A stretch of 64,000 nucleotides of DNA from Hyunsoonleella flava (GTDB taxonomy: Bacteria > Bacteroidota > Bacteroidia > Flavobacteriales > Flavobacteriaceae). Positions within the stretch are counted from its first letter, which is position 1; every line of letters begins with the position of its first letter. Both the position numbers and the translations under genes were made by a program. The stretch lies in assembly GCF_004310325.1 (NCBI RefSeq), contig NZ_SIRT01000002.1, forward strand, positions 1-64,000, in the 5' to 3' direction. The notes under the pieces were generated by a model that saw only the letters and a list, made by a program, of their open reading frames with translations, was not told the DNA's origin and did not search any database. Shown here piece by piece: positions 36,741-60,201 of this stretch.

Positions 36741-36886
36741 GCAAGGTAAACTCGTAAAATACTTCCATCAAAAGACTACGGCATAAAGCCGACGCTTCTT
36801 CCACTACTCATTTATTCCGTTTCCTTTTGAGCCAAGATTTTATCTTCCGTTTGGTTTCTGCTCAAATATTGTTTAATCAAAAATTT
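36741..36886 (+). repeat. Direct repeat (about 146 bp), copy 1, leader of parB
   Basis: This stretch matches 38791-38938 over nearly its whole length, in the same orientation. Shared blocks include TAAACTCGTAAAATAC, CATCAAAAGACTACGGCATA and TTTATTCCGTTTCCTTTTGA, and TGCTCAAATATTGTTTAA at the end. It ends just before the parB start. Two identical leaders suggest coordinate regulation. Confidence 0.85.
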
Positions 36887-36893
36887 GAGTATT

Positions 36894-45551: not shown

Positions 45552-46427
45552 TTGGGTTCACAAAATATAAAATATACTTTTTCAGGACACGATTCTTTTC
45601 AGTGTCGACAACTGTGGTTGAAAAAAGGTTACGATTACGTAGTTGAGAATAGAAACTTTAACGATGAAGACGCTGTTGTTCAGCTTGGAGTTGGTAAAAA
45701 TATGGTTTCTTCAATACGTTTTTGGCTAAAGGCATTCAACATTGTGGATAATAATGATTTGCCGACGGAATTTGGAAAGAGACTTTTTGACGATGAGATC
45801 GGTTATGACCCTTTTTTGGAAGATGAAGCAAGTTTATGGCTTTTACACTTTAATCTGGTAAAAACTGGATTTGCTTCTATATATAGCATTATTTTCAATG
45901 AGTTCAGAAAAGAAAAACTTTTCTTTAACAAAGAAACATATGTCAACTATTTGAAGAGAATTGCTGAGAGTGATAGTGATCTGAATTTCAATGAAAATAC
46001 TGTTGCTAAAGATTTTAATGTCTTTACGAATTTGTATAAAAATGAATCTAAAGGAAAAAATATAGAAGATAGTTTTTCAGGAATACTATCAGAAATTGAA
46101 CTGCTAAGTACAGCAGGAAAAGGAAAAGATGAGCAATTCTATATCGAGAACAGCGAAAGAGATAATCTATCTGAATACGTTGTGCTATATGCAATTCTTG
46201 AAAATGTAGATTACGGAAATTCCATCAGTTTAAATTCCTTAGAGTTTAATATCAATAGCCCAGGTTCAATTTTTGCACTGAATCGTTTGGGTTTGATGAA
46301 TAAAATTTCTGAAATAGTTAGTGAATTTGACGGAATAACTTTTACAGATCAAGCGGGAATAAAAGAGTTACAGTTCAAAAATAAGGTTGAAGCATTCAAG
46401 GTATTAGATAAATATTATGGCAAATAA
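45552..46427 (+). CDS. DUF4007 family protein
   Basis: A 291-residue soluble protein of the DUF4007 family, which co-occurs with PAPS-reductase and sulfur-modification genes. The family signature is at the N-terminus (FSGHDSFQCRQLWLKKGYD, residues 10-28). Helical segments and winged-helix-like character follow. No ATG is in frame near the conserved start, so TTG at 45552 is used. It overlaps the ATPase by 11 bases, and that coupling suggests one functional unit. The role in defence (DNA sensing or regulation) is not established. Confidence 0.82.
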   Translation: MGSQNIKYTFSGHDSFQCRQLWLKKGYDYVVENRNFNDEDAVVQLGVGKNMVSSIRFWLKAFNIVDNNDLPTEFGKRLFDDEIGYDPFLEDEASLWLLHFNLVKTGFASIYSIIFNEFRKEKLFFNKETYVNYLKRIAESDSDLNFNENTVAKDFNVFTNLYKNESKGKNIEDSFSGILSEIELLSTAGKGKDEQFYIENSERDNLSEYVVLYAILENVDYGNSISLNSLEFNINSPGSIFALNRLGLMNKISEIVSEFDGITFTDQAGIKELQFKNKVEAFKVLDKYYGK

Positions 46428-49400
46428 TTTCACGACATCGGTTAATATCATTAGAGATACTGACAGGGATTTTAATTATATCCCAACACCAAATGCAAAA
46501 CAAGTTGTTAGCCAAGTAGTTAATGATTTTAAAAAAGGTATTCGTTCTTTTAACATAGTGGGAACTTATGGTACAGGGAAGTCATCTTTTCTTTTAGCAT
46601 TTGAACAAAGTGTAAAAGGAGAAAGACGTTATTTTGACCCTAATTTTATTAGTAACCCTAATATAGATTTTGTTAAAATAATTGGCTCTTACTCGTCTAT
46701 AATAGAACGATTTGCAGGCGCATTTGATGTTGCGTCTCAAAAAAATCAGCAAGAAAATATTCTTTCTGAAATATTCAATAGATATCATTCATTAGGTGAC
46801 CAGAATAAGGTCTTATTTATTTTGATTGATGAGTTCGGGAAATTTTTGGAATATGCTACGAGAAATAATCCCGAGAGGGAATTGTATTTTGTTCAACAGC
46901 TTGCTGAATTTTGTAACAATCCAGAACACAATATTGTTCTTATAACGACGGTTCACCAAAGTTTAGAGTCTTATGCTTATTCGCTAAGTAAAACACAGCA
47001 ACAAGAATGGACTAAGATTAAAGGTCGTTTTCGTGAAATCACTTTTAATGAGCCAGTTGAACAACTGTTGTATTTAGCATCAGAATATCTTGTTGAAAAA
47101 TTCGATACCAATTCATCGGCTAAAGATATTGAGAAGTGCTTGACGTTGACAACCGAAACTAAGGCTTTCAATTTCAATAAGGATTTCCTCAAAGATATTG
47201 CTTCAAAGTTATATCCTTTGGATATTCTTTCAGCAAACATTCTGACACTTTCTCTACAAAGATATGGTCAAAACGAAAGATCGTTATTTTCCTTTCTTGA
47301 ATCCTCAGACCATACTGGTCTATCAAAATTCGATAAGCGTGAAAATCCATTTTACAATTTATCAAATGTTTATGACTATTTGAATTTTAATTTTTATTCA
47401 TTTCTAACATCAAGGTATAATCCAGATTTTTCTTCTTGGGGTTCTATCCGTTCCGCAATTGAAGAAGTAGAAAGAGCATTTGACCTTGATATTAATAACT
47501 ATATCAAGACTGTAAAAGTTATAGGTCTTTTGAATATTTTTTCAGCTAGCGGTTCAATTTTAGATTTCAATTTTTTAATTGATTACTTGAACATTGCTTG
47601 TGGCATAATCGATTCGAAAAATGTCATTAAAAATCTCGAAACGAAGAATATTATTCGTTACCGTGAGCATTCGAAACGATTTATTTTGTTCGAGGGAACG
47701 GATTTGGATATCCAAAATGCATTGATAGAAGCAGGAAATAAAATTTCAGAAGTTGTTGACATCACCACGCTCTTAAACAAGCATTTCCACTTTAGTCCTG
47801 TATTTGCAAAGCAATACTCTTTTACAACTGGCACCCCAAGGTATTTTGAGTTTGTTATTTCAGATTACCCTATTCAAGAAATACCCTTAGGAGAAGTTGA
47901 TGGTTTCGTAAATCTTGTTTTTAATAGTAAGCTGAAAGAAAGTGATGTTAAAAATAAGTCTAAACTTCAAGAAGAAGCTATAATTTATTGTTTTTTCAAC
48001 AATTCTAGCGAGATAAAAAATTTGTTATTTGAGATAGAAAAAATTCAGAAAGTAATAGAAGAAAACAAAGATGACAAGGTTGCAAAGAGGGAGCTTGAAA
48101 ACATTGTAGAATCGCAAATAAGATTGCTTAACCACTATATAACGGACAGCATATATTCAGGAGGCAAAGATGTAAAATGGTACTTCAACGGTGAGGAAAA
48201 AACTATTGCCGATAAAAAGGACTTTAATAAATTACTTTCTCAAGTTTGCAGTTTGGTTTATGACGCAACACCTCTATTTAAAAATGAATTGGTTAATAAG
48301 CATAAAATTTCTTCATCTATTCATACAGCCAAAAGAAATTATTTTAGGGCCTTAACGAATTGCTGGGATCAGGATAACTTGGGTTTTGAAGATTCTAAAT
48401 TTCCACCGGAAAAAACCATTTATCTGTCACTTTTAAAAGAAAACGGAATATCACCGATAAGAGAAAACAAAACAGGTGTTGTACACGTCGACAAATACTC
48501 TTCGTTCAATAAACTATGGAGAGCTTCCGAGGACTTTCTAGAAAGCGCCAAATCTGAACAACTCAAAATTTCCGAATTGGTTGATATGCTCGGAAAAAGA
48601 CCTTTTAAACTTAAACAGGGATTTATTGACTTTTGGATTCCTACTTTTCTCTTTCTAAAACGAGATGATTTTGCAATTTTTAACGATGATAGCTATATAC
48701 CAGATCTTTCCGAAGAAAATCTTGAGTTAATCGCTAAATACCCGGAAAAATATTCAATTAAATCCTTTGATATAGAAGGTGTTAAGTTAGATATTTTCAA
48801 TAGCTATCGTATTTTTCTAAACATTGGAACTCAAGAAAAGTTTGATAACGAATCGTTTATCGAAACTATTAAGCCATTCATTGTTTTCTACAAACAATTA
48901 CCAGAATACAGTAAAAATACCAAGAGATTATCTTCTTCGGCAAAGAAAATACGTAAAGCTATTGCGAACAGTAAAGATCCTGAGAAGACTTTCTTTGAAG
49001 CCTTTCCTGGTGCTCTAGGAATTACTTTAAGCACTTTGCAAAAGGACAAGTCAAAACTTCAAAATTACACAGTAAATCTTCAAAATGCAGTTAAAGAATT
49101 AAGAACAGCTTATGACGGCCTTCTCAATAGATTTGAGGAGTTCATTATAAATGAGTTTGTTGGTGAGAAAATTGAATTTGAGGAGTACAGAAAATATCTT
49201 CAAAAACGATTTTCAGGTTTAAAAAAGCATATGCTTTTAAACAATCAAAAATCTTTTATTCAGCGTCTTGACTCGCCATTGGATGACAAAAAGGCTTGGT
49301 TAAATTCCATAGGACAGTCTATAATGGGAAAAACCCTTGAAAGGTTTTCCGATGAAGATGAAGTTTTACTCTATGAGAAGTTTAAGTCAATGATTTTAGA

Positions 49401-49635
49401 TTTAGATAGCTTGACGAAAATTTCCAAAACTGATATTGATGAGAGTAAAGAGGAAGTAATTGGCGTTAAAATTGATTCGTTCTTCAGCAAGATTGACCCC
49501 AAGGTAGTCAGAATGCCTAAAAGTAAGAGCAAAGAGATTGAGCAATTGAAAGAAGAATTAAAAAATAAACTTGGCAAAGACAATACTTCAAACATAGCAG
49601 CGGTATTGAATCTGCTGAAAGAATTATTAAAATGA
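46417..49635 (+). CDS. Large P-loop ATPase of the defence island
   Basis: A 1072-residue ATPase. Walker A is GTYGTGKSS (residues 49-57) and Walker B is LFILIDE (133-139), followed by a sensor-type helix (LITTVHQSLESYAYS). The long rest is mostly helical with coiled-coil segments and no membrane helices. It resembles the large ATPases of BREX and phosphorothioation systems (BrxC/PglY-like, DptH-like) in layout, but I cannot assign a subfamily. It is coupled to DUF4007 upstream and overlaps dndC by 4 bases (ATGA). No PglZ, so it is not a plain BREX locus. Confidence 0.75.
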   Translation: MANNFTTSVNIIRDTDRDFNYIPTPNAKQVVSQVVNDFKKGIRSFNIVGTYGTGKSSFLLAFEQSVKGERRYFDPNFISNPNIDFVKIIGSYSSIIERFAGAFDVASQKNQQENILSEIFNRYHSLGDQNKVLFILIDEFGKFLEYATRNNPERELYFVQQLAEFCNNPEHNIVLITTVHQSLESYAYSLSKTQQQEWTKIKGRFREITFNEPVEQLLYLASEYLVEKFDTNSSAKDIEKCLTLTTETKAFNFNKDFLKDIASKLYPLDILSANILTLSLQRYGQNERSLFSFLESSDHTGLSKFDKRENPFYNLSNVYDYLNFNFYSFLTSRYNPDFSSWGSIRSAIEEVERAFDLDINNYIKTVKVIGLLNIFSASGSILDFNFLIDYLNIACGIIDSKNVIKNLETKNIIRYREHSKRFILFEGTDLDIQNALIEAGNKISEVVDITTLLNKHFHFSPVFAKQYSFTTGTPRYFEFVISDYPIQEIPLGEVDGFVNLVFNSKLKESDVKNKSKLQEEAIIYCFFNNSSEIKNLLFEIEKIQKVIEENKDDKVAKRELENIVESQIRLLNHYITDSIYSGGKDVKWYFNGEEKTIADKKDFNKLLSQVCSLVYDATPLFKNELVNKHKISSSIHTAKRNYFRALTNCWDQDNLGFEDSKFPPEKTIYLSLLKENGISPIRENKTGVVHVDKYSSFNKLWRASEDFLESAKSEQLKISELVDMLGKRPFKLKQGFIDFWIPTFLFLKRDDFAIFNDDSYIPDLSEENLELIAKYPEKYSIKSFDIEGVKLDIFNSYRIFLNIGTQEKFDNESFIETIKPFIVFYKQLPEYSKNTKRLSSSAKKIRKAIANSKDPEKTFFEAFPGALGITLSTLQKDKSKLQNYTVNLQNAVKELRTAYDGLLNRFEEFIINEFVGEKIEFEEYRKYLQKRFSGLKKHMLLNNQKSFIQRLDSPLDDKKAWLNSIGQSIMGKTLERFSDEDEVLLYEKFKSMILDLDSLTKISKTDIDESKEEVIGVKIDSFFSKIDPKVVRMPKSKSKEIEQLKEELKNKLGKDNTSNIAAVLNLLKELLK

Positions 49636-50735
49636 GCAAAATAAGACACGTATTAGGTATATCAGGAGGAAAAGACAGTGCTGCTCTGGCAATTTACGTA
49701 AAGACAAAATATCCATCCATAGACCTAGAATTTTACTCTTGCGATACCGGAAAGGAATTGGAGGAAACGTACCAGTTAATTAGAAATTTAGAAGTCTATC
49801 TTGGCATAAAAATTAATCTTTTACAAGGAGCAGAAAAAAGTTCAGAGGACCCATTCGATCATTTTTTAAAAATGTATGGTGGTTTTTTGCCTTCATCCAA
49901 TGCGCGCTGGTGTACTAAACAATTGAAATTAGCACCTTTTGAAAATTATGTTGGTGATGATCCAGTAGTTTCATACGTAGGTATCAGGGGTGATGAAGAA
50001 AGAGAAGGTTATATCTCTACTAAAAACAATATTCAGTCAATATTTCCTTTTCGCAAGAATATTTGGAGCAAGGATGTAATGACAAAGATGCTTTCAAACC
50101 AAAATATAGAGCAACTAATTCCGATATTTAAAAATACAGATTTCGGTCAAAGTCAAGAAAAAGTACATCAGGTTTTGTTCAGAAAAATAACCCCGGACTT
50201 TACTTTTGATCAGAAACTCAACACATTGTTAGACTCAAATGTTAAAGCCTTTAATCACTTAGTTTTCGACTTCTTAAAAACAACAGATTATCCTCTAGCA
50301 AAAGAAGAGGCATTTCCACTTATAGAAAATGACGAAATATTGGTTAAGGCTGATATTTTTAGAATATTAGAAGAAAGCGGTGTTGGTGTACCCGCCTATT
50401 ATAATAAGATAGAATTTGAAATTAATGGTAAAAAAGGCGAATATGCGAGAAGCCGTTCAGGATGTTTCTTCTGCTTCTTCCAACAAAAAATAGAATGGGT
50501 TTGGTTATATGAACAACACCCTGAACTATATAAGAAGGCAATGGAGTATGAGAAAGATGGGTATACGTGGGGACAAAACGAAAGTTTAGAAGAATTAATA
50601 CAGCCTGAAAGAATTGAGAAGATAAAAGAGGAATATATAAAAAGGATGGAAAGAAAATCCAAAGTGAAATCCCCCTATTTGGTAGATATTTTAGGAGATG
50701 ACGAGGATGAAGGATGTGCAGCTTGTTTCATCTAG
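49632..50735 (+). CDS. dndC: DndC-like PAPS-reductase-family sulfurtransferase
   Basis: A 367-residue ATP pyrophosphatase of the PAPS reductase family that in Dnd systems activates DNA for sulfur insertion. SGGKDS (residues 11-16) is the pyrophosphate loop. Further motifs: CDTGKELEETY, ARWCTKQLK, GIRGDEEREGY, and GCFFCFFQQ around residues 276-285, a likely iron-sulfur or zinc ligand set. It ends in an extra GCAACFI motif. It is shorter than canonical DndC (often about 450-550). It overlaps the ATPase stop. Confidence 0.85.
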   Translation: MSKIRHVLGISGGKDSAALAIYVKTKYPSIDLEFYSCDTGKELEETYQLIRNLEVYLGIKINLLQGAEKSSEDPFDHFLKMYGGFLPSSNARWCTKQLKLAPFENYVGDDPVVSYVGIRGDEEREGYISTKNNIQSIFPFRKNIWSKDVMTKMLSNQNIEQLIPIFKNTDFGQSQEKVHQVLFRKITPDFTFDQKLNTLLDSNVKAFNHLVFDFLKTTDYPLAKEEAFPLIENDEILVKADIFRILEESGVGVPAYYNKIEFEINGKKGEYARSRSGCFFCFFQQKIEWVWLYEQHPELYKKAMEYEKDGYTWGQNESLEELIQPERIEKIKEEYIKRMERKSKVKSPYLVDILGDDEDEGCAACFI

Positions 50736-50754
50736 ATAATATGTTTTTAGCACT

Positions 50755-51282
50755 ATGACAGGCAGCGCATTTTCTTTAGGAGAAGAAGTAGAGTTAAGAA
50801 AAGTCGAGTACAAACTTCACGGAGAGCTGTGGAAGAAATTTACTTGTGCTGATTTTGACTTGAAATTTGAGAATTGGATAAAAATAAAGTACTTGAATGA
50901 AAATGCAGATGATTTTGATGGTGGTGTTCTTGATGTTCCAAATGATAAAGGTGGACTTTATATGTTTTATGTAAAATGTAATATAATTTCTGGAATAACC
51001 GAATATCCCCTGTATGTTGGAAGAGCGCAAATAACAGAAAATCAAAATCTTAGAAAACGAGTGAAAGAATATTTTCAGAAATATAGTAAGAACAACGAAA
51101 GGCCAAAACTAACCAGAATGTTCAATTATTGGAAGAATGATTTGCATTTAGCTTATTTTCCGTTAGACGACAACGAGGATGTGATTAGTATTGAAAATCA
51201 ATTCATAAACTCATTACTCTTACCTATGAATACTGAAATTCCTGATACCGAAGTTAAACAGGCAATAAAAGCATTCCAATAA
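50755..51282 (+). CDS. GIY-YIG-like nuclease domain protein
   Basis: A 175-residue protein. The central segment shows the GIY-YIG pattern: KGGLYMFYV (GLY), YPLYVGRAQ (YVG), an Arg in LRKRVKEYF and a Glu in SIENQFINSLL. The remainder is helical and polar. It starts 19 bases after dndC, and its last base overlaps the dndB start. A nuclease role in restriction is plausible; the fit is by motif only, and a structural rather than catalytic role is the alternative. Confidence 0.65.
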   Translation: MTGSAFSLGEEVELRKVEYKLHGELWKKFTCADFDLKFENWIKIKYLNENADDFDGGVLDVPNDKGGLYMFYVKCNIISGITEYPLYVGRAQITENQNLRKRVKEYFQKYSKNNERPKLTRMFNYWKNDLHLAYFPLDDNEDVISIENQFINSLLLPMNTEIPDTEVKQAIKAFQ

Positions 51283-52517
51283 TGAAAATACCTGCACTAA
51301 AATCCAAAATGGGAGATTGGGATTATTATGTAACCACCTTGACTTTTGAACAAGTGAGTATGTACGTCTCAAAAATTGATGAGCAATTGCATAAATCTGA
51401 TTCCCTTAAAGATCTGATTCAGAGAAGTATTACGAATAATTTTTTGAGCATTAAAAGTTATATTCTCAATCAACCTTCTGTCTTTTTCAATTCCCTTGTG
51501 CTAGCAGTTTACGACGATTATCCCGATTGGCAGGAAATTGAGTTTAAATATGATGATATGGAAACCTATAAAATGGGCTTGCTAGATTTTCCAAGTAATC
51601 ATAAAATTTTTCCAGTTGATGGTCAACATCGAGTAGAAGGCATTAAAGCGGCCTTAAAAGAGAACCCTGAATTCAAGACTCATCAAATAGCTGCAATTTT
51701 CATTGGTCATAAAAATGATCCGGAAGGAAAACAACGAACAAGAAGATTATTTACAACTTTGAATCGGTATGCAAAACCAGTGAAATTGGATGATATTATT
51801 GCGTTAGACGAAGATGACTCTGTAGCAATAGTAACTAGATATATGTTAGAAGAATATGATTTATTTACCGACAAAAGAGTGGTTTATGCAAAGCAAAAGG
51901 CAATACCAAATAGTAACAAGGAAGCAATAACTTCTATAATAACTTTGTATCAAGCTAATGTTGAGTTGTTTAATGTTTATTTTCAAAACAAATTCAATAA
52001 AAAACCAACTAAAAGTAAGGTTGCTGAATATCTCAAATTTAGACCATCTGACGAAGAAATTGAAGAATTTAAAGCCTTTTGCATTCAGTATTGGGATGCG
52101 TTTAAAAATAATCTTTCATTTATATCGGACTACCTAAACCTAGAAGTGAATGCTGCCGCACCTTTTAGAAATAGTGAAACAGGAGGAAATCTTCTTTTCC
52201 GTCCAATTGGCTTAATACCATTTATCAAAGCGTGCTTAACAATCTATAAAAGAGAAGAAAAATCATTTGATGAGATTTTAGAGAGGTTTAATGACATCAA
52301 TTTTAACATCGATAGTAAACCTTGGCATTATGTTGTTTGGAACCCTATTGCAAAAAGAATGTTGATGAATTCTACTTCGTTGACCTATTTGCTATTGATT
52401 TACCTATATGATAGAGAATTAATTCAAGGAAATGAGTTGCAAAGGCTGAAAGAAGGATATGCCTCTAAAATTTCCTACGAACAGGATTTAGATAATGTTT
52501 TACAAGAAATCGATTGA
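51282..52517 (+). CDS. dndB: DndB-like DGQHR-domain protein
   Basis: A 411-residue DGQHR-domain protein. The defining motif is FPVDGQHRVEGI, with DGQHR at residues 113-117, followed by RRLFTTLNRYAKP and other DndB-like blocks. DndB controls phosphorothioation level and represses dnd genes in the systems that have been studied. The start overlaps the previous stop by one base and its stop overlaps the desulfurase start. Relative to those Dnd loci it is moved inside the operon, after dndC. Confidence 0.83.
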   Translation: MKIPALKSKMGDWDYYVTTLTFEQVSMYVSKIDEQLHKSDSLKDLIQRSITNNFLSIKSYILNQPSVFFNSLVLAVYDDYPDWQEIEFKYDDMETYKMGLLDFPSNHKIFPVDGQHRVEGIKAALKENPEFKTHQIAAIFIGHKNDPEGKQRTRRLFTTLNRYAKPVKLDDIIALDEDDSVAIVTRYMLEEYDLFTDKRVVYAKQKAIPNSNKEAITSIITLYQANVELFNVYFQNKFNKKPTKSKVAEYLKFRPSDEEIEEFKAFCIQYWDAFKNNLSFISDYLNLEVNAAAPFRNSETGGNLLFRPIGLIPFIKACLTIYKREEKSFDEILERFNDINFNIDSKPWHYVVWNPIAKRMLMNSTSLTYLLLIYLYDRELIQGNELQRLKEGYASKISYEQDLDNVLQEID

Positions 52518-53671
52518 GTCAAAAACAAAACATATCGTACCTAGACTACAATTCGACTACCCCAATCGATCCGAGGGTACTAGATGCAATGCTACCTTAT
52601 CTAAAAGATAATTTTGGTAACTCAAGCAGTACCCATCATTTTGGTCAAATCATAAATAAAAGAGTAAAACAAGCTAGAAGTCAAATCGCTCATTTTATAA
52701 ATTCAGAATCCAGTGAAATAATCTTTACTAGTGGGGCTACGGAAGCAATCAATATTGCTCTTAAAGGAATAGCAGAAAGCTATAATAACAAAGGTAACCA
52801 CATCATTACTGTTTCGACCGAACATAAGGCAGTTCTAGACACTTGCAAAGATTTGGAAAGAAAAGGGTTCGAGGTAACTTTTCTACCTATTAAAGAAAAT
52901 GGTCTACTTTGTTTAGATTTCTTAGAAGAATCCATTAGGACTGATACCATACTTGTTTCGGTTATGTTCGTCAATAACGAAACAGGAGTCATTCAACCTA
53001 TCAAAAAAATTGCTGAGATAGTTCACGAGAAAGGAGCTTTATTTATGACAGACGCAACACAAGCGCTGGGTAAAATTGAAGTTGATGTTCAGGAATTAGG
53101 TATAGACCTACTCTGTTTCAGCGGACACAAGATGTATGCCCCAAAAGGCATTGGTGCTCTTTTTGTACGAAGAAGTGATAAAACGGTAAATCTTACACCT
53201 CAGACACACGGTGGTGGTCACGAAATTGGTTTGAGAAGTGGAACATTGAATGTTCCTGGGATTATTGCTTTAGCGAAAGCCTGTGAAATCTCTAGCCAAG
53301 AAATGACAGAAAATCGCGCTCTAGTTTCTGAATTAAGAGATACCTTGGAATATGAATTGTTGAAAATAGGCCAAACATCACTGAATGGTGATTTAACTAA
53401 AAGAATTTATAATACAACTAATATTTGTTTCAAAGGTAAAGATGCCAATGTACTAATTGGTAGAATGAAGACCATTGCAGTTTCGAATGGTTCAGCTTGT
53501 TCATCAGCTGTTTTTGAACCTTCTCACGTGCTCAAATCAATGGGGCTTAGTGATGATGACGCACTCGCTTCTTTACGTTTTTCACTCGGAAAATATAATA
53601 CAATTGAGGATGTCAAACTAGTTGTGGAAACCATAAAAAAACTAACTGAACCTCAATCAAAATATGCTTAA
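52514..53671 (+). CDS. dndA: Cysteine desulfurase (DndA/IscS-like)
   Basis: A PLP enzyme of 385 residues that provides the sulfur for DNA modification. The PLP lysine is in CFSGHKMYAPKG (Lys206) and the persulfide-forming Cys is in SNGSACSS (Cys329), matching group I desulfurases of the NifS/IscS type. In this operon it is the sulfur donor for DndC. It starts at a TTG that overlaps the dndB stop by four bases, and overlaps the helicase gene by eight. Chromosomal IscS/SufS could replace it; here it is encoded beside its partners. Confidence 0.9.
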   Translation: MSQKQNISYLDYNSTTPIDPRVLDAMLPYLKDNFGNSSSTHHFGQIINKRVKQARSQIAHFINSESSEIIFTSGATEAINIALKGIAESYNNKGNHIITVSTEHKAVLDTCKDLERKGFEVTFLPIKENGLLCLDFLEESIRTDTILVSVMFVNNETGVIQPIKKIAEIVHEKGALFMTDATQALGKIEVDVQELGIDLLCFSGHKMYAPKGIGALFVRRSDKTVNLTPQTHGGGHEIGLRSGTLNVPGIIALAKACEISSQEMTENRALVSELRDTLEYELLKIGQTSLNGDLTKRIYNTTNICFKGKDANVLIGRMKTIAVSNGSACSSAVFEPSHVLKSMGLSDDDALASLRFSLGKYNTIEDVKLVVETIKKLTEPQSKYA

Positions 53672-55868
53672 AGATTGCGAATGGTCAAAAGATCGAGACT
53701 ATAAAACAGATTCTGAAAATGAACCGCTACAATTTTACTTAGATGGGTTGGCCAATAGTAATGAGTTTAACCTACTACTAGGCTATTTCAGTTCTTCTGC
53801 TATCAACCTGCTTTCGGTTGGCTTTGCCACCTTCATCAGTAAAGGTGGTAAAATGAAAATGGTTATAAACCATTTGCTTTCTTCAAAAGACAAAGAAGCG
53901 ATAACAAAAGCAGATACTGAACCTCAAGGAAAGGTTTTTGATTTAATGGATGTCGTTTCCTTAGGTAAAGTTTTGGATGAATACGACACTCACTTTTTTG
54001 AGTGTTTAACTTACCTCATTTCTGAAAAACGAATTGAAATCAAAGTGATTAAACCGAAAAATGGAAAAGGAATAGCCCATTATAAATCGGGAGTTTTCAG
54101 TGATGGACAGGACTCAGTTGGCTATAAGGCATCCTGCAATTTTACACTGTATGGATTATCAGAAAATTTAGAGGAGCTAGAAGCTTTTCTAAGTTGGGAA
54201 AATGGACGATCAAACACATTAATAAAAAAACAACGGAAATTGATCGATGCTTATTTTTCTGAAAAAGATGAAGATGTAGAATATATTCCTGTGGATGAAA
54301 TAGAAGTTGTACTTAAAGATAAGTTCGGCAAAAAAGATATTAATGAATTACTTGTTCAAGAAGAACAACTCTTAAAAAAGAAACGAAGCCTAATTTCAAA
54401 TCCCAAATTAAAAAAAACGATTACAAAGCTTTTCAATGAAATCGACGTCATTCGCAGATCACCTAAATTTCCTTACAAGGAAGGACCTAGAGAATATCAA
54501 ATTAATGCATATAAAGAATGGGTTGACAATAATTACAAGGGAATTTTCGCAATGGCGACAGGGACGGGAAAAACGATTACATCTCTTAACTGCTTATTGA
54601 ACGAATATAAAGCAACAAACATTTATAGAGCCATTATAACCGTACCCACAACCGCATTAGTAGAGCAATGGAAAAAAGAATGTGCCAAATTTAACTTCAA
54701 AAATATCATTACCGTAAGTTCAAAGGAAAATTGGGATAATAATCTTGCTTTCTTCAACACAGCGTCAAAACTTATTGATGCATCATTCATTGTCATCGTT
54801 ACATATGCTTCCTTACCAAGAAAGAAATTTCAGAGTTATTTTACCCAACTTCCTAATGACACTATCTTAATTGCAGATGAGACCCATAATCTGGGTTCAC
54901 AAGGCCTTTTAAAAATTTTACCGACTCTACATTTAGAAAAGAGAATAGGGTTGTCCGCCACACCACATAGAAAATTCGACGAACTTGGAAATACAGCCAT
55001 TCAAGATTTTTTCAATGACAAACCGCCTTACATAGTTTCATATTCTATGGAAGAAGCTTTAAAAATAGGATGGTTGTGCAGTTATACGTATTACCCACAC
55101 GTGGTTAAACTCACAGATCGGGAATTGGAGGAGTATAGGAAATTATCGTTACAATTACTAAGAATGGGAATGTTTGATAAAGAAACGGGTGCTTTTAAAA
55201 GCAGTCCTGAAATCGAGAGGTTGCTTCTTCAAAGAAAACGCATCATTCACAAAGCAGCTAATAAATTGGACGCTTTTAAAAAAATCCTTAGCAAAGAATA
55301 TGATGAGCGTGGAAATCTAAAATACACATTGGTATATGTTCCAGAAGGAGTAGAATCAAATTTTGAAAATGTGGATTTTAGTACTGAAACGGAAGATGAA
55401 AATAGATTAATAAATGAATATACTAAAGCTGTAAGTCAAACGGATGACTCTATTATGGTAAAGCAATTTACGTCTAATTCGATTAATCGTGAAAACATAT
55501 TAAAGGATTTTGAATCTGGGAATGTTCACGTATTAACATCAATGAAGTGTTTAGACGAAGGTGTAGATGTCCCTCGTTCCGAGTTGGCAGTATTTTGCGC
55601 TAGTACCGGAAACCCAAGACAGTTCATTCAACGTAGAGGAAGAGTTTTACGCTTGCACGATGATAAAACCCACGCAACAATTCACGATCTAGTAGTAGTC
55701 CCAGAGGTTGGTTCTGAAGAAAATACTTTTGAGATGGAAAAAGGATTGGTAAGGAAAGAACTAGAGAGAGTTGTTGATTTCGCTAATCTTGCTATGAATA
55801 AGTCTGACACTTACGAAACATTAAAGAATATTTTGGACTATTATAGTTTGAATCTGAACGATATATAA
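53664..55868 (+). CDS. PLD-nuclease and DEAD/DEAH helicase protein (phosphorothioation-linked restriction enzyme candidate)
   Basis: A 734-residue fusion. Residues 1 to about 210 form a phospholipase D-like nuclease half (HYKSGVFSDG, HxK at 139-141, plus KASCNF). Residues about 270-700 form an SF2 helicase with Walker A MATGTGKTI (297-305), ADETHN, LSATPHRKF and the arginine-finger motif VI QFIQRRGRVLRLH. This layout matches helicase-nuclease restriction enzymes of phosphorothioation systems. It overlaps the desulfurase stop by 8 bases, and a 76-aa gene follows. It is the best candidate effector. Confidence 0.8.
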   Translation: MLKDCEWSKDRDYKTDSENEPLQFYLDGLANSNEFNLLLGYFSSSAINLLSVGFATFISKGGKMKMVINHLLSSKDKEAITKADTEPQGKVFDLMDVVSLGKVLDEYDTHFFECLTYLISEKRIEIKVIKPKNGKGIAHYKSGVFSDGQDSVGYKASCNFTLYGLSENLEELEAFLSWENGRSNTLIKKQRKLIDAYFSEKDEDVEYIPVDEIEVVLKDKFGKKDINELLVQEEQLLKKKRSLISNPKLKKTITKLFNEIDVIRRSPKFPYKEGPREYQINAYKEWVDNNYKGIFAMATGTGKTITSLNCLLNEYKATNIYRAIITVPTTALVEQWKKECAKFNFKNIITVSSKENWDNNLAFFNTASKLIDASFIVIVTYASLPRKKFQSYFTQLPNDTILIADETHNLGSQGLLKILPTLHLEKRIGLSATPHRKFDELGNTAIQDFFNDKPPYIVSYSMEEALKIGWLCSYTYYPHVVKLTDRELEEYRKLSLQLLRMGMFDKETGAFKSSPEIERLLLQRKRIIHKAANKLDAFKKILSKEYDERGNLKYTLVYVPEGVESNFENVDFSTETEDENRLINEYTKAVSQTDDSIMVKQFTSNSINRENILKDFESGNVHVLTSMKCLDEGVDVPRSELAVFCASTGNPRQFIQRRGRVLRLHDDKTHATIHDLVVVPEVGSEENTFEMEKGLVRKELERVVDFANLAMNKSDTYETLKNILDYYSLNLNDI

Positions 55869-55878
55869 AATAACTCTT

Positions 55879-56109
55879 ATGGCAAGAAAAGATACTATAC
55901 TTAAAAGTTTTTTGACTCACGACTTACTTGAATCTAAATATGAATTTGATAAGGCAGATTTACCTTCTACAGTGAGAGAAGCGCTATCCTCTGACAAACC
56001 AGTTATTAAAGCGATTGCCTTGATAGTAGAAGGATTAGACGGTACTTCACCAGTTACGGACTCAGTACTAAGGAATCAAGTCACACAATTTCTAAACGAG
56101 GCCTTATGA
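55879..56109 (+). CDS. Small unknown protein (76 aa) in the defence operon
   Basis: A 76-residue acidic, helical protein (KSFLTHDLLESKYEFD, VTDSVLRNQVTQFLNEAL). It has no membrane segment and no known motif. The gene lies 10 bases after the helicase and overlaps dndD by 4 bases (ATGA), a position where canonical operons often place small subunits. It is a candidate for a missing DndE-type role, by position only. Confidence 0.55.
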   Translation: MARKDTILKSFLTHDLLESKYEFDKADLPSTVREALSSDKPVIKAIALIVEGLDGTSPVTDSVLRNQVTQFLNEAL

Positions 56110-58256
56110 TTATCAGAAAAATACAAATAGACAATTATCTATGTTACTACGACACTAATACTTTTGTGTTGTCGGAAGGTTTGAATATTATCCTCGGTGA
56201 AAACGGAGAAGGGAAAACGAAATTTTTTGAAGCTGTCGATTGGCTGTTCAATGGTGAGAATGAAGATTTAGAATTACTTGTTTCGGCCAAAAAGTTAAGT
56301 GAAACTGAAATTGGTGAAAGCTTTAGGGTTAGGGTCTCAATGACTGTTGAACAGTATGGCGATAGTAAAATAATAACCAGGTCCTTTTTAGCTAAGAAGG
56401 AAAAAGAAAACCAATGTTCGACTTCAAGCTTTATGATTGAAGGTATTGAAGAAAATAGTTCAGGTGAGCGAAGTCAGGTCGATGGTGCAACTCTTCTTGA
56501 TAGGGTATTCCCTTTTCAAATTCGAAAATATTCTATGTTTAAAGGTGAAGCTGATTTAAACATTTTTGAAAGCGACAATGCCCTAGTCAACCTTATCAAC
56601 TTATTTTCAGAAGCAAAACACTATGATAAATATTCAGATAAAGGTACTTTTCTTAGAGAGAAAGCTGAAAAAGCAGTCGAAGATTCTGCGAAACGTGATA
56701 AGAAAAACGCAAACCTTTACAAGAAGCTTGAGGGAGAAATTTCGCTTCTTGAAAAAGAGAAAGCTAAATACGAAGTTCATTTAAATTCTACTGATGAGGA
56801 AATTAGGAAAATTGAAGGGAATTTACAATTAGCTGAAAGTTACGTTAAGAACGCCAAGGCTTTAGAAACTTTAAATAAACGGATTAAAGAAGTTGAAGAA
56901 AAAATTTCTTTTCTCAACGGTAGAATTGATGAAAACTATACCACATCCCTGTTTGATGAAAATTGGATTCTTGTCAATTTCGAACCATTTCATAAAGAGT
57001 TTGCTGAAAAGGTATCTGAGCATAGCAAAAAGCGAAGAGAACTTCAATCTGAGTTTGACAAAGAGAAGGGAATTAAACTTGGTGAGAAAAAAGCAAAAGC
57101 AGATTTGCTGAACAATGCAGTTCCACTTCCTACCGGTGTGCCTTCAAAGGCGCATATGGAAGAAATGCTAAATGATGAAATATGCAAAGTGTGTAATCGC
57201 GATGCAAAAAAGGGTTCTGACGCATATGAATTTATGATGGGAAGACTTAAGAATTATCTAGAAAGTCAGGTTGTTGATGAAACCGAAGATGAAGAAGATG
57301 AGCCTCTTTTCAGGCTAGATTATACAAATAGGCTAGAAAATTTGAGTATTAGTCACGAGGACAATTTGAAAAATCTTCGATCAATAAGAACAAAAATTAA
57401 AGACCTCTTCCAATTTAATGATGAAAGAAAAAAAGAGATTGAAGAACTTAATGAGCAATTGGAGAAGGAGAAATTAGAAAGAGAGAGAATTTTAGGTGAT
57501 ACTAGCATTGCTGAGGATGAGCTGATAGATGTATTCAAAAACTACAATGGGTGGCAAAATGATTTGAAAGTTAGAAATCAAGATCAGCTTCGATATACAT
57601 TAGAGTACGAAAAGCTTGAAAGCCAATTGAAAATAAAAAAAGAGGAAAAAGACAAAATAGATATTGATTCAGCAAATTCATTCTTGATTAAAACAAGGAA
57701 TATATTGCGAGATATTGAAACTATCTTTTTAGATACCAAAGAGAAAAAGTTTGATGAATTTATTGAAAAGCTGCAAACAAAATCTAATAGCTTTTTCAAG
57801 AAAATTAATATTGACGCTTTCACAGGTACAATTATTTTCACTAGACGAAATAAAGTAAATCGAACTATAGTTGAAGTCGAGTTGCAGGAGGATGGTAGAG
57901 TTTTTTATAAGCCAAATCAATCCCTACTGACTTCAATGCATATCTCAATTCTTTTTGCTATTTCAGAATTAGCCACCGAAACAAAAGAAGAAAATTTCCC
58001 AATGATTTTTGATGCGCCCACATCATCGTTTGGGGAAAATAAAACTGCACAGTTCTTGAATTTAATTTTTGAAACCGATAACCAGAAAATCTTACTCATT
58101 AAAGATTTCCTTCACACCGACAGAGCGTCAAAAACACTATCAATCAAAAACGAATTTGAGAGCGTTAGACGAGATAAAGCTTTTTGGGTAAAACTAGAAA
58201 GACCTTTTGATCCCAATAATTTGAAGACAATTAACTCTCAGGTAATTACATTATAG
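56106..58256 (+). CDS. dndD: DndD-like SMC/Rad50-type ATPase
   Basis: A 716-residue SMC-like ATPase. Walker A is GENGEGKT (residues 31-38), followed by FFEAVDWLFNG. Two coiled-coil arms (about 200-340 and 400-560) flank a zinc hook CKVCNR (Cys360, 363). The C-terminal ATPase half has the signature LLTSMHISILFA and Walker B MIFDAPTSSFGENK. DndD is the DNA-nicking or ATPase partner in Dnd modification. It overlaps the 76-aa gene and ends one base before the next gene. Confidence 0.85.
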   Translation: MIIRKIQIDNYLCYYDTNTFVLSEGLNIILGENGEGKTKFFEAVDWLFNGENEDLELLVSAKKLSETEIGESFRVRVSMTVEQYGDSKIITRSFLAKKEKENQCSTSSFMIEGIEENSSGERSQVDGATLLDRVFPFQIRKYSMFKGEADLNIFESDNALVNLINLFSEAKHYDKYSDKGTFLREKAEKAVEDSAKRDKKNANLYKKLEGEISLLEKEKAKYEVHLNSTDEEIRKIEGNLQLAESYVKNAKALETLNKRIKEVEEKISFLNGRIDENYTTSLFDENWILVNFEPFHKEFAEKVSEHSKKRRELQSEFDKEKGIKLGEKKAKADLLNNAVPLPTGVPSKAHMEEMLNDEICKVCNRDAKKGSDAYEFMMGRLKNYLESQVVDETEDEEDEPLFRLDYTNRLENLSISHEDNLKNLRSIRTKIKDLFQFNDERKKEIEELNEQLEKEKLERERILGDTSIAEDELIDVFKNYNGWQNDLKVRNQDQLRYTLEYEKLESQLKIKKEEKDKIDIDSANSFLIKTRNILRDIETIFLDTKEKKFDEFIEKLQTKSNSFFKKINIDAFTGTIIFTRRNKVNRTIVEVELQEDGRVFYKPNQSLLTSMHISILFAISELATETKEENFPMIFDAPTSSFGENKTAQFLNLIFETDNQKILLIKDFLHTDRASKTLSIKNEFESVRRDKAFWVKLERPFDPNNLKTINSQVITL

Positions 58257-58257
58257 T

Positions 58258-58785
58258 ATGAATAATTTATTTGAAAAATGGAAAACTAAAATTCCAAAAT
58301 ATAGTGAGGTTCATAAAGATTTGTTCGCTTCGCTTTCTCAAAAGTTTGGGGCAGAAGGCGAAAAAAAAATTAATCTGGGAAAACACTTCAGTACTAACTA
58401 CGAATTATACACCTACGCCTTTTTTCTAGGACTCTACAATGATGAATATAGTCCAATTCCTGATAAGGAAAAGAAAACGGACTTTAGCCATCATATCCAG
58501 CATTGGGGAAGTAAGACAACAATTTCTTCGCGTAAGGACTTTACTAATTTGCAGGAAAATATATTTATAGCACTAGTGGCCAAAACAGATTTAGACTTGA
58601 TTGATTTGGAGAAAGGAGAACTTGATGAGGACCAGGCAGTCAAATTGATCCTTAAAACAATGGAGTCATTCACAAATGGAGGTCTTATCCTTATTAAAGA
58701 AAAGTTAGAGGAAAATCCAAATTATTTCTTGCAACCGACATCATTTTTAAATTTGATTTTGGAGAAAAATGTGATATCACACTAG
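58258..58785 (+). CDS. Unknown protein (175 aa) after dndD
   Basis: A 175-residue acidic protein that follows dndD by one base, so it is in the same operon. N-terminal part is helical (FASLSQKFGAEGEKKINLGKH is a likely helix-loop) and the C-terminal half forms amphipathic helices (EDQAVKLILKTMESFTNGGL). It does not resemble DndE, whose gene usually stands here. It may be a system-associated subunit; I cannot assign a family. Confidence 0.55.
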   Translation: MNNLFEKWKTKIPKYSEVHKDLFASLSQKFGAEGEKKINLGKHFSTNYELYTYAFFLGLYNDEYSPIPDKEKKTDFSHHIQHWGSKTTISSRKDFTNLQENIFIALVAKTDLDLIDLEKGELDEDQAVKLILKTMESFTNGGLILIKEKLEENPNYFLQPTSFLNLILEKNVISH

Positions 58786-58821
58786 ATGCCAATAGAATTT
58801 TAAATTTATTTTTCAACTAGA

Positions 58822-60201
58822 ATGCCAGAAACAAACCGCATAGAATACAAACGAGAATTGACCGATGGACTTGAAAAAGAGGTCGTTGCTTTTCTGAACT
58901 ACCGTGAAGGTGGCATTCTATACATTGGTGTCGATAAAGAGGGAAATACCTACGGATTGACAGATGCAGATGGCGACCAGTTGAAGATTAAGGATAGACT
59001 CAAAAATAATATCCGTCCTTCTGCATTGGGTTTATTTGACATTGTGAGCGAGGAAAGAGATGGTAATGATATCCTGAAAATCATTGTAGCTAGCGGTCCA
59101 GAAAAACCATATCATCTTAAAAAGTATGGTATGAGTGAAAAGGGATGTTTCATTCGTTTAGGTTCGGCAGCTGAACCGATGACACAAAAAATGATTGATG
59201 AGCTCTTTGCTAAGCGCACCCGAAATTCCATTAACAAAATTAAAGCTGGCAGACAGGATTTAAGCTTTAGCCAGTTGAAAATTTACTATGAGGAATCTGG
59301 ATATAAGCTAGGAAAAGCATTTTCAAAGAATTTAGAATTACTAACCGAGGATGGCGCGTTCAATTATGCCGCCTATCTTTTAGCAGATAAAAACAATACC
59401 TCTATAAAGGTTGCCAAGTATTCCGGCACAACTCGAACAGACCTAATAGAAAGTAACGAGTACGGACACGAATGTTTGATAAAAGCTACAAAACAAGTAA
59501 TTGATAAAATTGCCGTAGAGAACAGAACTACTACAAAAATTACTTCAAAAGAAAGGCAGCAGGCCAATCTTTGGAATCCCATTGCGTTACGCGAGGCTAT
59601 CATTAACGCCTTTGTGCATAATGACTACACAAATGAGATTACCCCAAAGTTTGAAATTTTTACCGATAGAATTGAAATTACTTCGGCAGGCGGTCTACCA
59701 GAAGGATTAAGCAAACAAGAATTTTTTGAAGGCTTTTCAGTTCCTCGCAATAAGGAACTGATGCGAATTTTTAAAGATTTGGAACTGGTAGAACAATTAG
59801 GTTCTGGTATTCCTCGTATTTTAGGACATTATGGAAAAGAAAGTTTTAGTTTTTCTGATAATTTCCTAAGAATGACTTTTGCCGTTAAAGAAGAAACTAA
59901 TGAAACTGCTGTTAAAGTTGATGATGAAGAAGCTAGTCAAAAAGGTGGTGTAATAGGTGGTGTAATAGGTAGTGCAAAAGGTGGTGCAATTGATGCTACT
60001 GAAGCTCTAACTAAAAGACAAAAAGAAGTACTTAAGCTAATTGCTGCTAATCCTTCAATAACATATAATGATATAGCTGAAGCTTTAGGCATTAATGAAT
60101 CTGCCGTAGGGAAACATATTACAGCAATAAAGAATAAAGGATTTTTAGTACGTCACGGCGATACAAGAGGCTATTGGGAAATCAAACTTGAGAAAAATTG
60201 A
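58822..60201 (+). CDS. AlbA_2/Schlafen-type ATP-binding protein with C-terminal winged helix
   Basis: A 459-residue protein. Residues 1 to about 120 form an AlbA_2 (Schlafen) domain (EYKRELTDGLEKEVVAFLN, GGILYIGVDKEGNTYGL). Residues about 240-355 form an ATP-binding GHKL-like domain (ALREAIINAFVHNDYT, QLGSGIPRILGHYG). A Gly-Gly-Val-Ile linker (nt about 59943-59990) leads to a winged helix (LKLIAANPSITYNDIAEALG). Such proteins are often defence or regulatory accessories. It starts 37 bases after the previous gene and is convergent with the tra operon. Confidence 0.8.
   Translation: MPETNRIEYKRELTDGLEKEVVAFLNYREGGILYIGVDKEGNTYGLTDADGDQLKIKDRLKNNIRPSALGLFDIVSEERDGNDILKIIVASGPEKPYHLKKYGMSEKGCFIRLGSAAEPMTQKMIDELFAKRTRNSINKIKAGRQDLSFSQLKIYYEESGYKLGKAFSKNLELLTEDGAFNYAAYLLADKNNTSIKVAKYSGTTRTDLIESNEYGHECLIKATKQVIDKIAVENRTTTKITSKERQQANLWNPIALREAIINAFVHNDYTNEITPKFEIFTDRIEITSAGGLPEGLSKQEFFEGFSVPRNKELMRIFKDLELVEQLGSGIPRILGHYGKESFSFSDNFLRMTFAVKEETNETAVKVDDEEASQKGGVIGGVIGSAKGGAIDATEALTKRQKEVLKLIAANPSITYNDIAEALGINESAVGKHITAIKNKGFLVRHGDTRGYWEIKLEKN

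Follow-up and report, generated by a model that had tools for sequence, protein, structure and literature searches.

A Bacteroidota operon that probably couples an SspABCD-type DNA phosphorothioation module to a PbeABCD-type effector, with a slot for exchangeable accessory genes

The tag set by SspABCD phosphorothioation modules is a single-strand one, 5'-CpsCA-3'. One such module can serve two effectors, SspE and SspFGH, and among 2678 sspBCD loci 196 were found with sspFGH, 199 with sspE and 36 more with both, most having neither (PMC8092258). In an archaeon the effector PbeABCD needed Dnd tags for protection against a virus (PMC6459918), and a review notes that modification and restriction clusters are sometimes exchangeable (PMC12707154). 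In the account of Rakesh et al. 2024 (PMC10853773) PbeA is an HKD-SF2 helicase, PbeB is small and evolves rapidly, PbeC is a CxC ABC ATPase, and PbeD is cognate to DndE. Here we examine a stretch of 64,000 nucleotides from Hyunsoonleella flava (contig NZ_SIRT01000002.1, positions 1 to 64,000; the window in what follows) and argue, with a probability of roughly 70%, that its genes from sspB to pbeD form one co-inherited operon in which an SspABCD-type phosphorothioation module is coupled to a PbeABCD-type effector. The parts are of known kinds; the Ssp-Pbe pairing, the accessory slot inside the operon and the two-gene GIY-YIG/DGQHR pair that fills it were not found described in the text of the papers searched, supplementary tables lying outside that search. 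The preliminary description of this DNA had proposed a phosphorothioation-type defence island, and such an operon does recur in Bacteroidota with a gene order that we did not find named in those papers. The features are the following:

45552..46427, plus strand: sspB (DUF4007), 291 amino acids (aa), TTG start; predicted DNA-binding and nicking subunit of the Ssp modification module
46417..49635, plus strand: sspC ATPase, 1072 aa; Walker A GTYGTGKS at residue 49; PADLOC SspC
49632..50735, plus strand: sspD, PAPS-reductase/ATP-pyrophosphatase-like sulfur transferase; SGGKDS at residue 11, Cys pairs 278/281 and 362/365
50736..52513, plus strand: accessory slot, sspD to sspA; gap size and contents vary in 16 loci
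50755..51282, plus strand: GIY-YIG-like nuclease, accessory slot gene 1, 175 aa; PF01541 just under cut-off
51282..52517, plus strand: DGQHR protein (DndB superfamily, ParB-like), accessory slot gene 2, 411 aa; TIGR03187, PF14072
52514..53671, plus strand: sspA, cysteine desulfurase, 385 aa; SGHK (Lys206), GSAC (Cys329)
53664..55868, plus strand: pbeA, PLD/HKD domain fused to SF2 helicase, 734 aa; HYKSGVFSD at 139, GTGKT at 300, DETH at 405
55879..56109, plus strand: pbeB-position small protein, 76 aa, so called from size and position only
56106..58256, plus strand: pbeC-position zinc-hook ABC ATPase, 716 aa; CKVC at 360
58258..58785, plus strand: pbeD-position protein, possibly DndE-like, 175 aa; position, size and weak matches
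58822..60201, plus strand: AlbA neighbour (SLFN_AlbA_2/HATPase/wHTH), outside the core; PF04326

All eleven plus-strand open reading frames predicted at 45552-60201 are present. The landmarks SGGKDS, DGQHR, CKVC, Lys206 and Cys329 were located in the predicted proteins, and library scans recovered the DUF4007 protein, the 1072-aa ATPase, the PLD-helicase and the GIY-YIG-like protein. Overlaps of 1 to 11 bases hold for six of the ten junctions, the other four being gaps of 1, 10, 19 and 36 bases.

By their profile matches the upstream genes are an SspABCD-type DNA-phosphorothioation module and not a Dnd one, with sspA standing after two interposed genes. PADLOC models gave 1694.8 bits for SspC (237.5 bits for BrxC on the same protein), 396.2 bits for SspB, which also matches PF13182 with 260.6 bits, and 313.4 bits for SspD against 18.5 for DndC, PF01507 matching as well. 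The solved SspB (6juf/6lb9) matches the window protein with E=2.1e-19, and nicking by SspB is cited in PMC9239217; searches of PDB sequences with SspC and SspD yielded nothing useful. The name of SspA rests on its context, because this protein scores 544.5 bits as SspA and 541.4 bits as DndA. The catalytic landmarks SGHK and GSAC of SspA, SGGKDS of SspD and GTYGTGKS of SspC are intact. The Dnd assignment of the preliminary description, which had read the sulfur transferase as DndC-like, was thus given up: Ssp models win for SspB, SspC and SspD, no DndD model matched, and scans of the ten genes from sspB to pbeD with NCBIfam, Pfam and PADLOC returned no DndE. The SspA-D module is common to the window and to the SspABCD-SspE and SspABCD-SspFGH systems, the solved SspB being a relative, but the effector in the window is of PbeABCD type and there is a slot between sspD and sspA; neither a fused DUF262-DUF1524 SspE nor an FtsK/HerA-type match was present among the same ten genes, SspE having been looked for in these genes and not in the rest of the genome. 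SspB-, SspC- and SspD-like proteins are shared with BREX type 4 too, of which the BrxL and PglZ proteins had no PADLOC match among the ten genes.

The same description saw no recognisable PbeABCD set, and this proved wrong. The 734-aa protein encoded after sspA scores 1119.6 bits with the PADLOC PbeA model (410.7 bits with TIGR04095, under its cut-off of 600) and is 25% identical to the PbeA-position protein of Halorubrum trapanicum (E=2.7e-37); the remaining genes follow in the order A-B-C-D, which in the window and in the recurring operons matches the canonical Pbe order. Since PADLOC scores SspC and PbeA of the window very highly, its models were probably trained on such proteins. A PDB sequence search with PbeA matched its helicase part only, to XPB-type and other helicases. 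Judged by sequence PbeA is firm, and PbeB to PbeD rest largely on position. The PbeB-position protein matched nothing in the NCBIfam, Pfam and PADLOC scans, nor the archaeal small protein. The PbeD-position protein reached E=0.033 with the PADLOC PbeD model, which misses the archaeal PbeD-position protein too, and its hhalign comparisons were weak (E 0.04-0.07, probability about 1%); neither sequence profiles nor the PDB sequence search linked it to DndE. Its structure model (predicted local distance difference test, pLDDT, 82.4) had in DndE 4lrv the highest TM-score (TMt 0.49) and the lowest root-mean-square deviation of 48 PDB matches, but at rank 6 and with E=3.1, so that the modelled likeness of fold is only suggestive.

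Haloarchaeal DndCDEA-PbeABCD (PMC6459918) likewise has a PLD-helicase, a small gene, an ABC ATPase and a second small gene after its modification genes, the tagging module being Dnd there and Ssp here; in our direct comparison, made with Halorubrum trapanicum, PbeC aligned weakly and PbeB and PbeD without significance. The CxC ABC-ATPase systems share the HKD-SF2 helicase, the small protein, the hooked ABC ATPase and the gene at the DndE position, but in main-text sections of PMC10853773 they are paired with DndDE or methylases and not with SspBCD, and no GIY-YIG/DGQHR pair appears there, although URI/GIY-YIG nucleases near Dnd loci are mentioned.

As a separate observation, pbeC and pbeD (56106-58785 in the window) each come as two alleles, with roughly 60-65% and 63-69% identity to the window, in combinations that differ among the loci compared (L005, L007, L008, L010, L011 and L077; L and G numbers are our labels for loci and genomes). 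The larger genes of these operons are mostly 75-88% identical, and the alleles perhaps reflect swapping of target-recognition parts.

Recurrence and co-divergence speak for a coupling of the two modules. A search for close relatives of PbeA returned 16 loci, 15 of them with at least one Ssp gene upstream; in the sixteenth (L017) the contig starts inside pbeA. In a phylum sample of 395 genomes, 21 contain SspC and 10 contain PbeA, and the two occur together in seven (G000, G296, G218, G324, G265, G167 and G270), always at a single locus (7/7), against an expected overlap of about 0.5 (hypergeometric P 4.5e-8, a value that overstates independence, as there were fewer than seven events because G218/G324 and G167/G270 each share a genus); we took the two counts to be of one sample, as size, completeness and genus counts are equal. 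The loci of G167 and G270 (L070 and L072) have distant Ssp proteins and no recognised PbeB or PbeD, and the PbeA frame of L072 is short. Pairwise identities of SspC and PbeA vary together with Spearman coefficients of 0.96, 0.93 and 0.89 for 21, 19 and 16 loci (Mantel p 0.0005; the values combine close and distant relatives and so push any correlation upwards), and those of SspC and SspD with 0.95, 0.92 and 0.89 for the same sets; the divergence of SspC and PbeA is therefore correlated as tightly as that of genes inside the Ssp module. By different methods Xiong et al. 2019 (PMC6459918) reported a rho of 0.107 for DndCD against PbeAC.

In the PbeA tree, loci from Weeksellaceae, Cyclobacteriaceae, Chitinophagales and Flavobacteriaceae are placed close together, and because the operon is spread over several families with SspC and PbeA still matched, the sequences point to its transfer as a whole unit. 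Over the 38 rows of this tree the Ssp label needs five changes, three of them forced by well-supported branches, so the Ssp pairing has been gained or lost more than once; L017 and L086 carry the label 'other' in this count although their upstream DNA is off the contig, and L081 is likewise cut. Two separate PbeA lineages pair with Ssp, the deeper join, where L070 and L072 meet an archaeal row, being flagged for long branches.

For gene order we compared 16 same-strand operons, namely the window, L002-L006, L008-L012, L015, L016, L076, L077 and L079, to the exclusion of cut contigs (L007, L013, L017, L081, L086), the damaged L014, convergent loci (L064, L065, L066, L078, L080), the distant L070 and L072, and L056, which is on the same contig as L008. 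The sspB/sspC junction is an 11-base overlap and the sspC/sspD junction a 4-base overlap in 16/16, sspA overlaps pbeA by 8 bases in 12/16, and the other four junctions each stay within a range of at most 22 bases, apart from 1015 bases in L016, where the pbeC frame is split, and a single junction of L008 that was not read. Between sspD and sspA the distance ranges from 12 to 3727 bp (the 338 of L011 reflecting an sspD broken into two frames). Because the other junctions are nearly fixed and this gap varies in size and contents, we regard it as a swappable slot, which holds one of four cassettes or nothing.

The slot is empty in five of the 16 operons and holds the GIY-YIG-like and DGQHR genes in four, so that these two genes, which gave the earlier gene list its unusual look, are slot contents and not defining partners, and were rejected as core genes. 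Four more (L005, L009, L012, L015) have a three-gene set encoding a 543-565-aa protein, whose L005 copy was scanned and matched nothing in Pfam or PADLOC, a 366-370-aa ATPase that resembles BrxD weakly in the one copy scanned, and a protein that is PIN-like by eye, with no Pfam PIN match. One operon has a nucleoside-deoxyribosyltransferase-like gene and a gene for a 212-aa protein, and two (L010, L016) have DUF262 and SIR2 genes, one of these also with an Mrr-type nuclease gene. Pfam was run on one copy per cassette, and the L016 pair was assigned by its likeness to L010. On cut contig L013, sspD is followed by a two-gene insert that includes a DEDDh exonuclease gene, with no sspA before pbeA. 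Immediately after sspD the convergent loci differ again, with a membrane-like protein and a gene 49% identical to the L013 exonuclease (L064), a histidine-kinase-like ATPase (by eye) and two other genes (L065), or DUF262-like and kinase-like genes identified by likeness to L060 and L063, of which three genes were scanned (L078).

Two further observations concern these cassettes. The DUF262 (DGQQR) and SIR2 pair lies at 6974-8866 in L010 and 5459-8851 in L016, and in L010 its DUF262 protein matches PADLOC NsnA with 113.6 bits and its SIR2 protein the ThsA models. The ATPase of the three-gene cassette is 89% identical between L015 and L005/L009, where PbeA is 62-63% identical, and 76% against 62% in comparison with L012, which suggests that this cassette moves separately from the operon.

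The GIY-YIG-like protein of the window slot scores 21.4 bits with PF01541, just under the cut-off of 22.6, and its GxY, YxG, Arg and Glu positions, which we take to be the GIY-YIG catalytic positions, are kept in 13/13 aligned homologues; a structure model (pLDDT 33), built from two near-identical rows, was unusable. Its partner matches TIGR03187 (109.8 bits, cut-off 58.85) and PF14072, and PDB sequence searches with the two proteins gave nothing useful. The DGQHR protein, read earlier as a DndB-like Dnd component, belongs to the DndB superfamily, but canonical DndB identity was rejected, with TIGR03233 at 70.7 bits against a cut-off of 328, and the 13 GIY-linked DGQHR copies form a clade (support 100/100) apart from four other DndB/DGQHR proteins, those of L105, L106 and L107 and the second DndB of Rhizobium sp. 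NXC14.

The association of the two genes is close. The GIY-YIG-like gene lies directly before the DGQHR gene in 13 loci, with gaps of -47 to +4 bases. This DGQHR type occurs in 6/395 genomes of the class sample at E 1e-30, and the fetched loci of the five genomes beyond the window's own have the GIY-YIG gene in front (5/5), as do the three plasmid records examined (3/3, of five with good coverage). The GIY-YIG profile search found 3/395 genomes, three more copies beside DGQHR genes falling outside its limit and being seen in fetched stretches only; these class counts were taken as one sample by the same inference as above. No such GIY-YIG gene was present in about 12.5 kb around each of three control loci with other DndB/DGQHR proteins (L105, L106, L107). 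Beyond the four slot copies the pair neighbours Ssp genes in L058, L066, L091, L092, L095 and L096 and Dnd genes in L093, L094 and L097, and Rhizobium sp. NXC14 has the pair together with a separate DndB in dndBCDE. In two of the Dnd-linked loci (L093, 7439-9001; L094, 6873-8438) a gene in which DndE is fused to a HerA-like ATPase precedes the pair; the fusion was recognised by PF08870 and AAA_10/HerA_C in L093, and the L094 copy is similar by eye.

In SspE and DndI a ParB-like DGQQR NTPase that reads the sulfur tag is joined to an HNH nickase (PMC9646914, PMC11662687), and the DUF262 domain of GmrS is related to DGQHR (PMC4619093). The slot pair resembles SspE, DndI and GmrSD in having a ParB-like DGQQR/DGQHR domain and a partner nuclease, but here each of the two has a gene of its own, and the nuclease is GIY-YIG-like instead of HNH. 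From the domain pairing of SspE and DndI and the relation to GmrS we therefore propose the pair as a two-gene counterpart with a different nuclease, that is, an accessory, perhaps a split SspE/DndI-like nickase. A reading that we hold to be quite possible, if short of even odds, is that the two proteins are instead a regulator and a helper of modification, the DGQHR protein tuning expression as DndB does and the GIY-YIG protein nicking DNA for sulfur insertion. DndB has been called a negative transcriptional regulator (PMC7464106), and the pair adjoins Ssp and Dnd modification modules whatever the effector. The distance of the DGQHR protein from DndB, both in score and in the tree, speaks against such a role, as do the separate DndB that Rhizobium sp. 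NXC14 keeps beside the pair, the absence of the pair from the slot in 12/16 operons, and the other occupants of the slot, among them SIR2 genes, an Mrr-type nuclease gene and the DEDDh exonuclease gene of L013. More tentatively, and with the odds clearly on the other side, the pair may be a portable phosphorothioate-gated restriction module that plugs into Ssp and Dnd systems, in which sensing of the tag, with hydrolysis of NTP, would fall to the DGQHR protein and nicking of untagged DNA to the GIY-YIG protein, the Ssp-Pbe operon being a scaffold with a slot for exchangeable second effectors.

The coupling of Ssp and Pbe itself has to be weighed against several results. Neither PbeB nor PbeD matches a known Pbe protein significantly in sequence, and SspA could almost equally be called DndA. 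The PbeC-position protein scores slightly higher with the PADLOC LmuB model than with PbeC (58.0 against 49.0 bits; of four relatives scanned, L080 and L085 were best on PbeC, L015 and L066 on LmuB), blastp with it finds archaeal DndD and not the archaeal PbeC-position protein, and its family profile, built from matches that may include some DndD-like proteins, gives archaeal DndD 108 bits against 18.2 for the archaeal PbeC-position protein, in which the hook is CxC and not CxxC as in the window. Co-variation of SspC with PbeC is lower (Spearman 0.70 and 0.62 for 19 and 16 loci), the seven-genome overlap includes the two same-genus pairs, and the 15 operons beyond the window all came from PbeA searches (12 + 3) and so do not sample such loci at random. 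Of 397 genomes in a family sample, 16 have PbeA, and in 7/16 the fetched stretch contains Ssp genes; the other nine showed none in the stretch seen, some contigs being cut short, and one of these (L083), like L090 of the phylum sample, has DndC-like and DndD-like genes instead. The 716-aa protein, put down as DndD-like in the preliminary description, had no match at E 0.01 among the DndD models of NCBIfam and PADLOC, and the zinc hook that it has is absent from four annotated DndD proteins (L097, L101, L105, L106) and from four DndD-like proteins adjoining DndC-like ones (L083, L090, L093, L094); with the archaeal DndD score as a counterpoint, it is best described as a DndD/CxC-type ABC ATPase with a hook, standing where PbeC is expected.

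Could PbeABCD be independent of Ssp tags and a chance neighbour within a defence island? Published data lend this some weight, since dndCD was missing from the neighbourhood of 320 among 553 PbeAC sets, candidate base-modifying genes being present for 155 of the 320, and the similarities of PbeAC were poorly correlated with those of DndCD (PMC6459918); PbeA occurs without Ssp in the sampled genomes too. We consider it unlikely, in view of the recurrent 8-base sspA/pbeA overlap, the co-divergence of SspC and PbeA, the two separate PbeA lineages paired with Ssp (with the caution on long branches given above) and the convergent loci, in all of which sspA still adjoins pbeA (5/5). Still less probable is that the operon has decayed and is carried along without a function. 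Damage does occur among its relatives (sspD lies in two frames in L011, pbeC is split in L016 and sspC is short in L014), but in the window all frames are open, the catalytic motifs are intact and, from SspB to PbeD, the ten proteins share 89-99% identity with those of an Arenibacter aquaticus copy. That the island is a Dnd-type system which lost DndE is hardly credible, the DGQHR and PAPS-reductase domains common to Dnd and the profile match of the 716-aa ATPase to archaeal DndD being outweighed by the Ssp models that win for SspB, SspC and SspD and by the want of any DndD or DndE model match.

We thus prefer the co-inherited Ssp-Pbe operon. The identities of SspA to SspD and of PbeA, the recurrence, the co-divergence, the slot and the conserved pair are read from sequence. 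Tagging by SspABCD and restriction by PbeABCD we infer from knowledge of these families, and the biochemistry, with the parts played by PbeB, PbeC, PbeD and the slot genes, is to be understood in the same way. In such a model SspA would take sulfur from cysteine and pass it to SspD, SspB and SspC would locate and open the site, and the sulfur would be set into the backbone of self-DNA. The zinc-hook ATPase at the PbeC position and the PbeD-position protein would then scan DNA and, where tags are missing, PbeA as an HKD/PLD nuclease-helicase would stop the invading DNA. The sspD-sspA slot would hold an exchangeable accessory effector or sensor, the GIY-YIG-like and DGQHR proteins of the window being, on this model, probably a second, tag-gated nuclease.

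Some of the sspBCD loci that have neither sspE nor sspFGH, and some of the pbeAC sets without dndCD, would be accounted for by a recurrent Ssp-Pbe operon. The slot would also offer a simple route to new tag-gated effectors, by reading the genes between sspD and sspA, with the GIY-YIG/DGQHR pair, seen with both tagging systems, as the first candidate.

The island was previously described as cargo of an integrative and conjugative element (ICE), and the setting agrees with an ICE-like element, the stretch being flanked by a DUF5712 gene and a type IV coupling protein (T4CP) gene upstream and by tra genes downstream, the latter comprising TraM and DUF4138 genes (DUF4138 being presumably TraN-type). 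Among 54 stretches compared, this ICE position is common to the window, L002, L003 and L076 only; the slot is empty in L003 and filled in L002 and L076, which provides a natural comparison with and without the accessory genes. AlbA, left as a possible member in the preliminary description, is intact in the window, L003 and L076 and truncated in L002; the stretches of the 12 remaining loci of the 16 did not show it. Because it is confined to the copies at this ICE position we place it outside the core and rejected it as a system component. A terminator scan gave 7 sites against 7.2 in shuffles, hence no excess, and promoter-like sites (78 against 58.1 +/- 9.4 in shuffles) were not used. A ParB-like protein (PF02195) is encoded at 36885-38681 of the window, upstream of mobilisation genes, and is perhaps part of the ICE-like region.

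Other candidates were noticed along the way. In the Ssp loci L058, L060, L063 and L092, in whose fetched stretches no Pbe set was seen, the strand that does not carry the ssp genes encodes an 807-819-aa GHKL/HSP90-ATPase-like protein, recognised in L058 by a HATPase_c_3 match at the Pfam cut-off and in the other three by eye; it may be another effector or sensor associated with Ssp. In L084 (8948-11179) and L085 (17129-19348), where PbeABCD stands without Ssp, there is directly downstream of pbeD a gene for a 739-743-aa protein with a DndB-like match, which in L085 lies below the Pfam cut-off.

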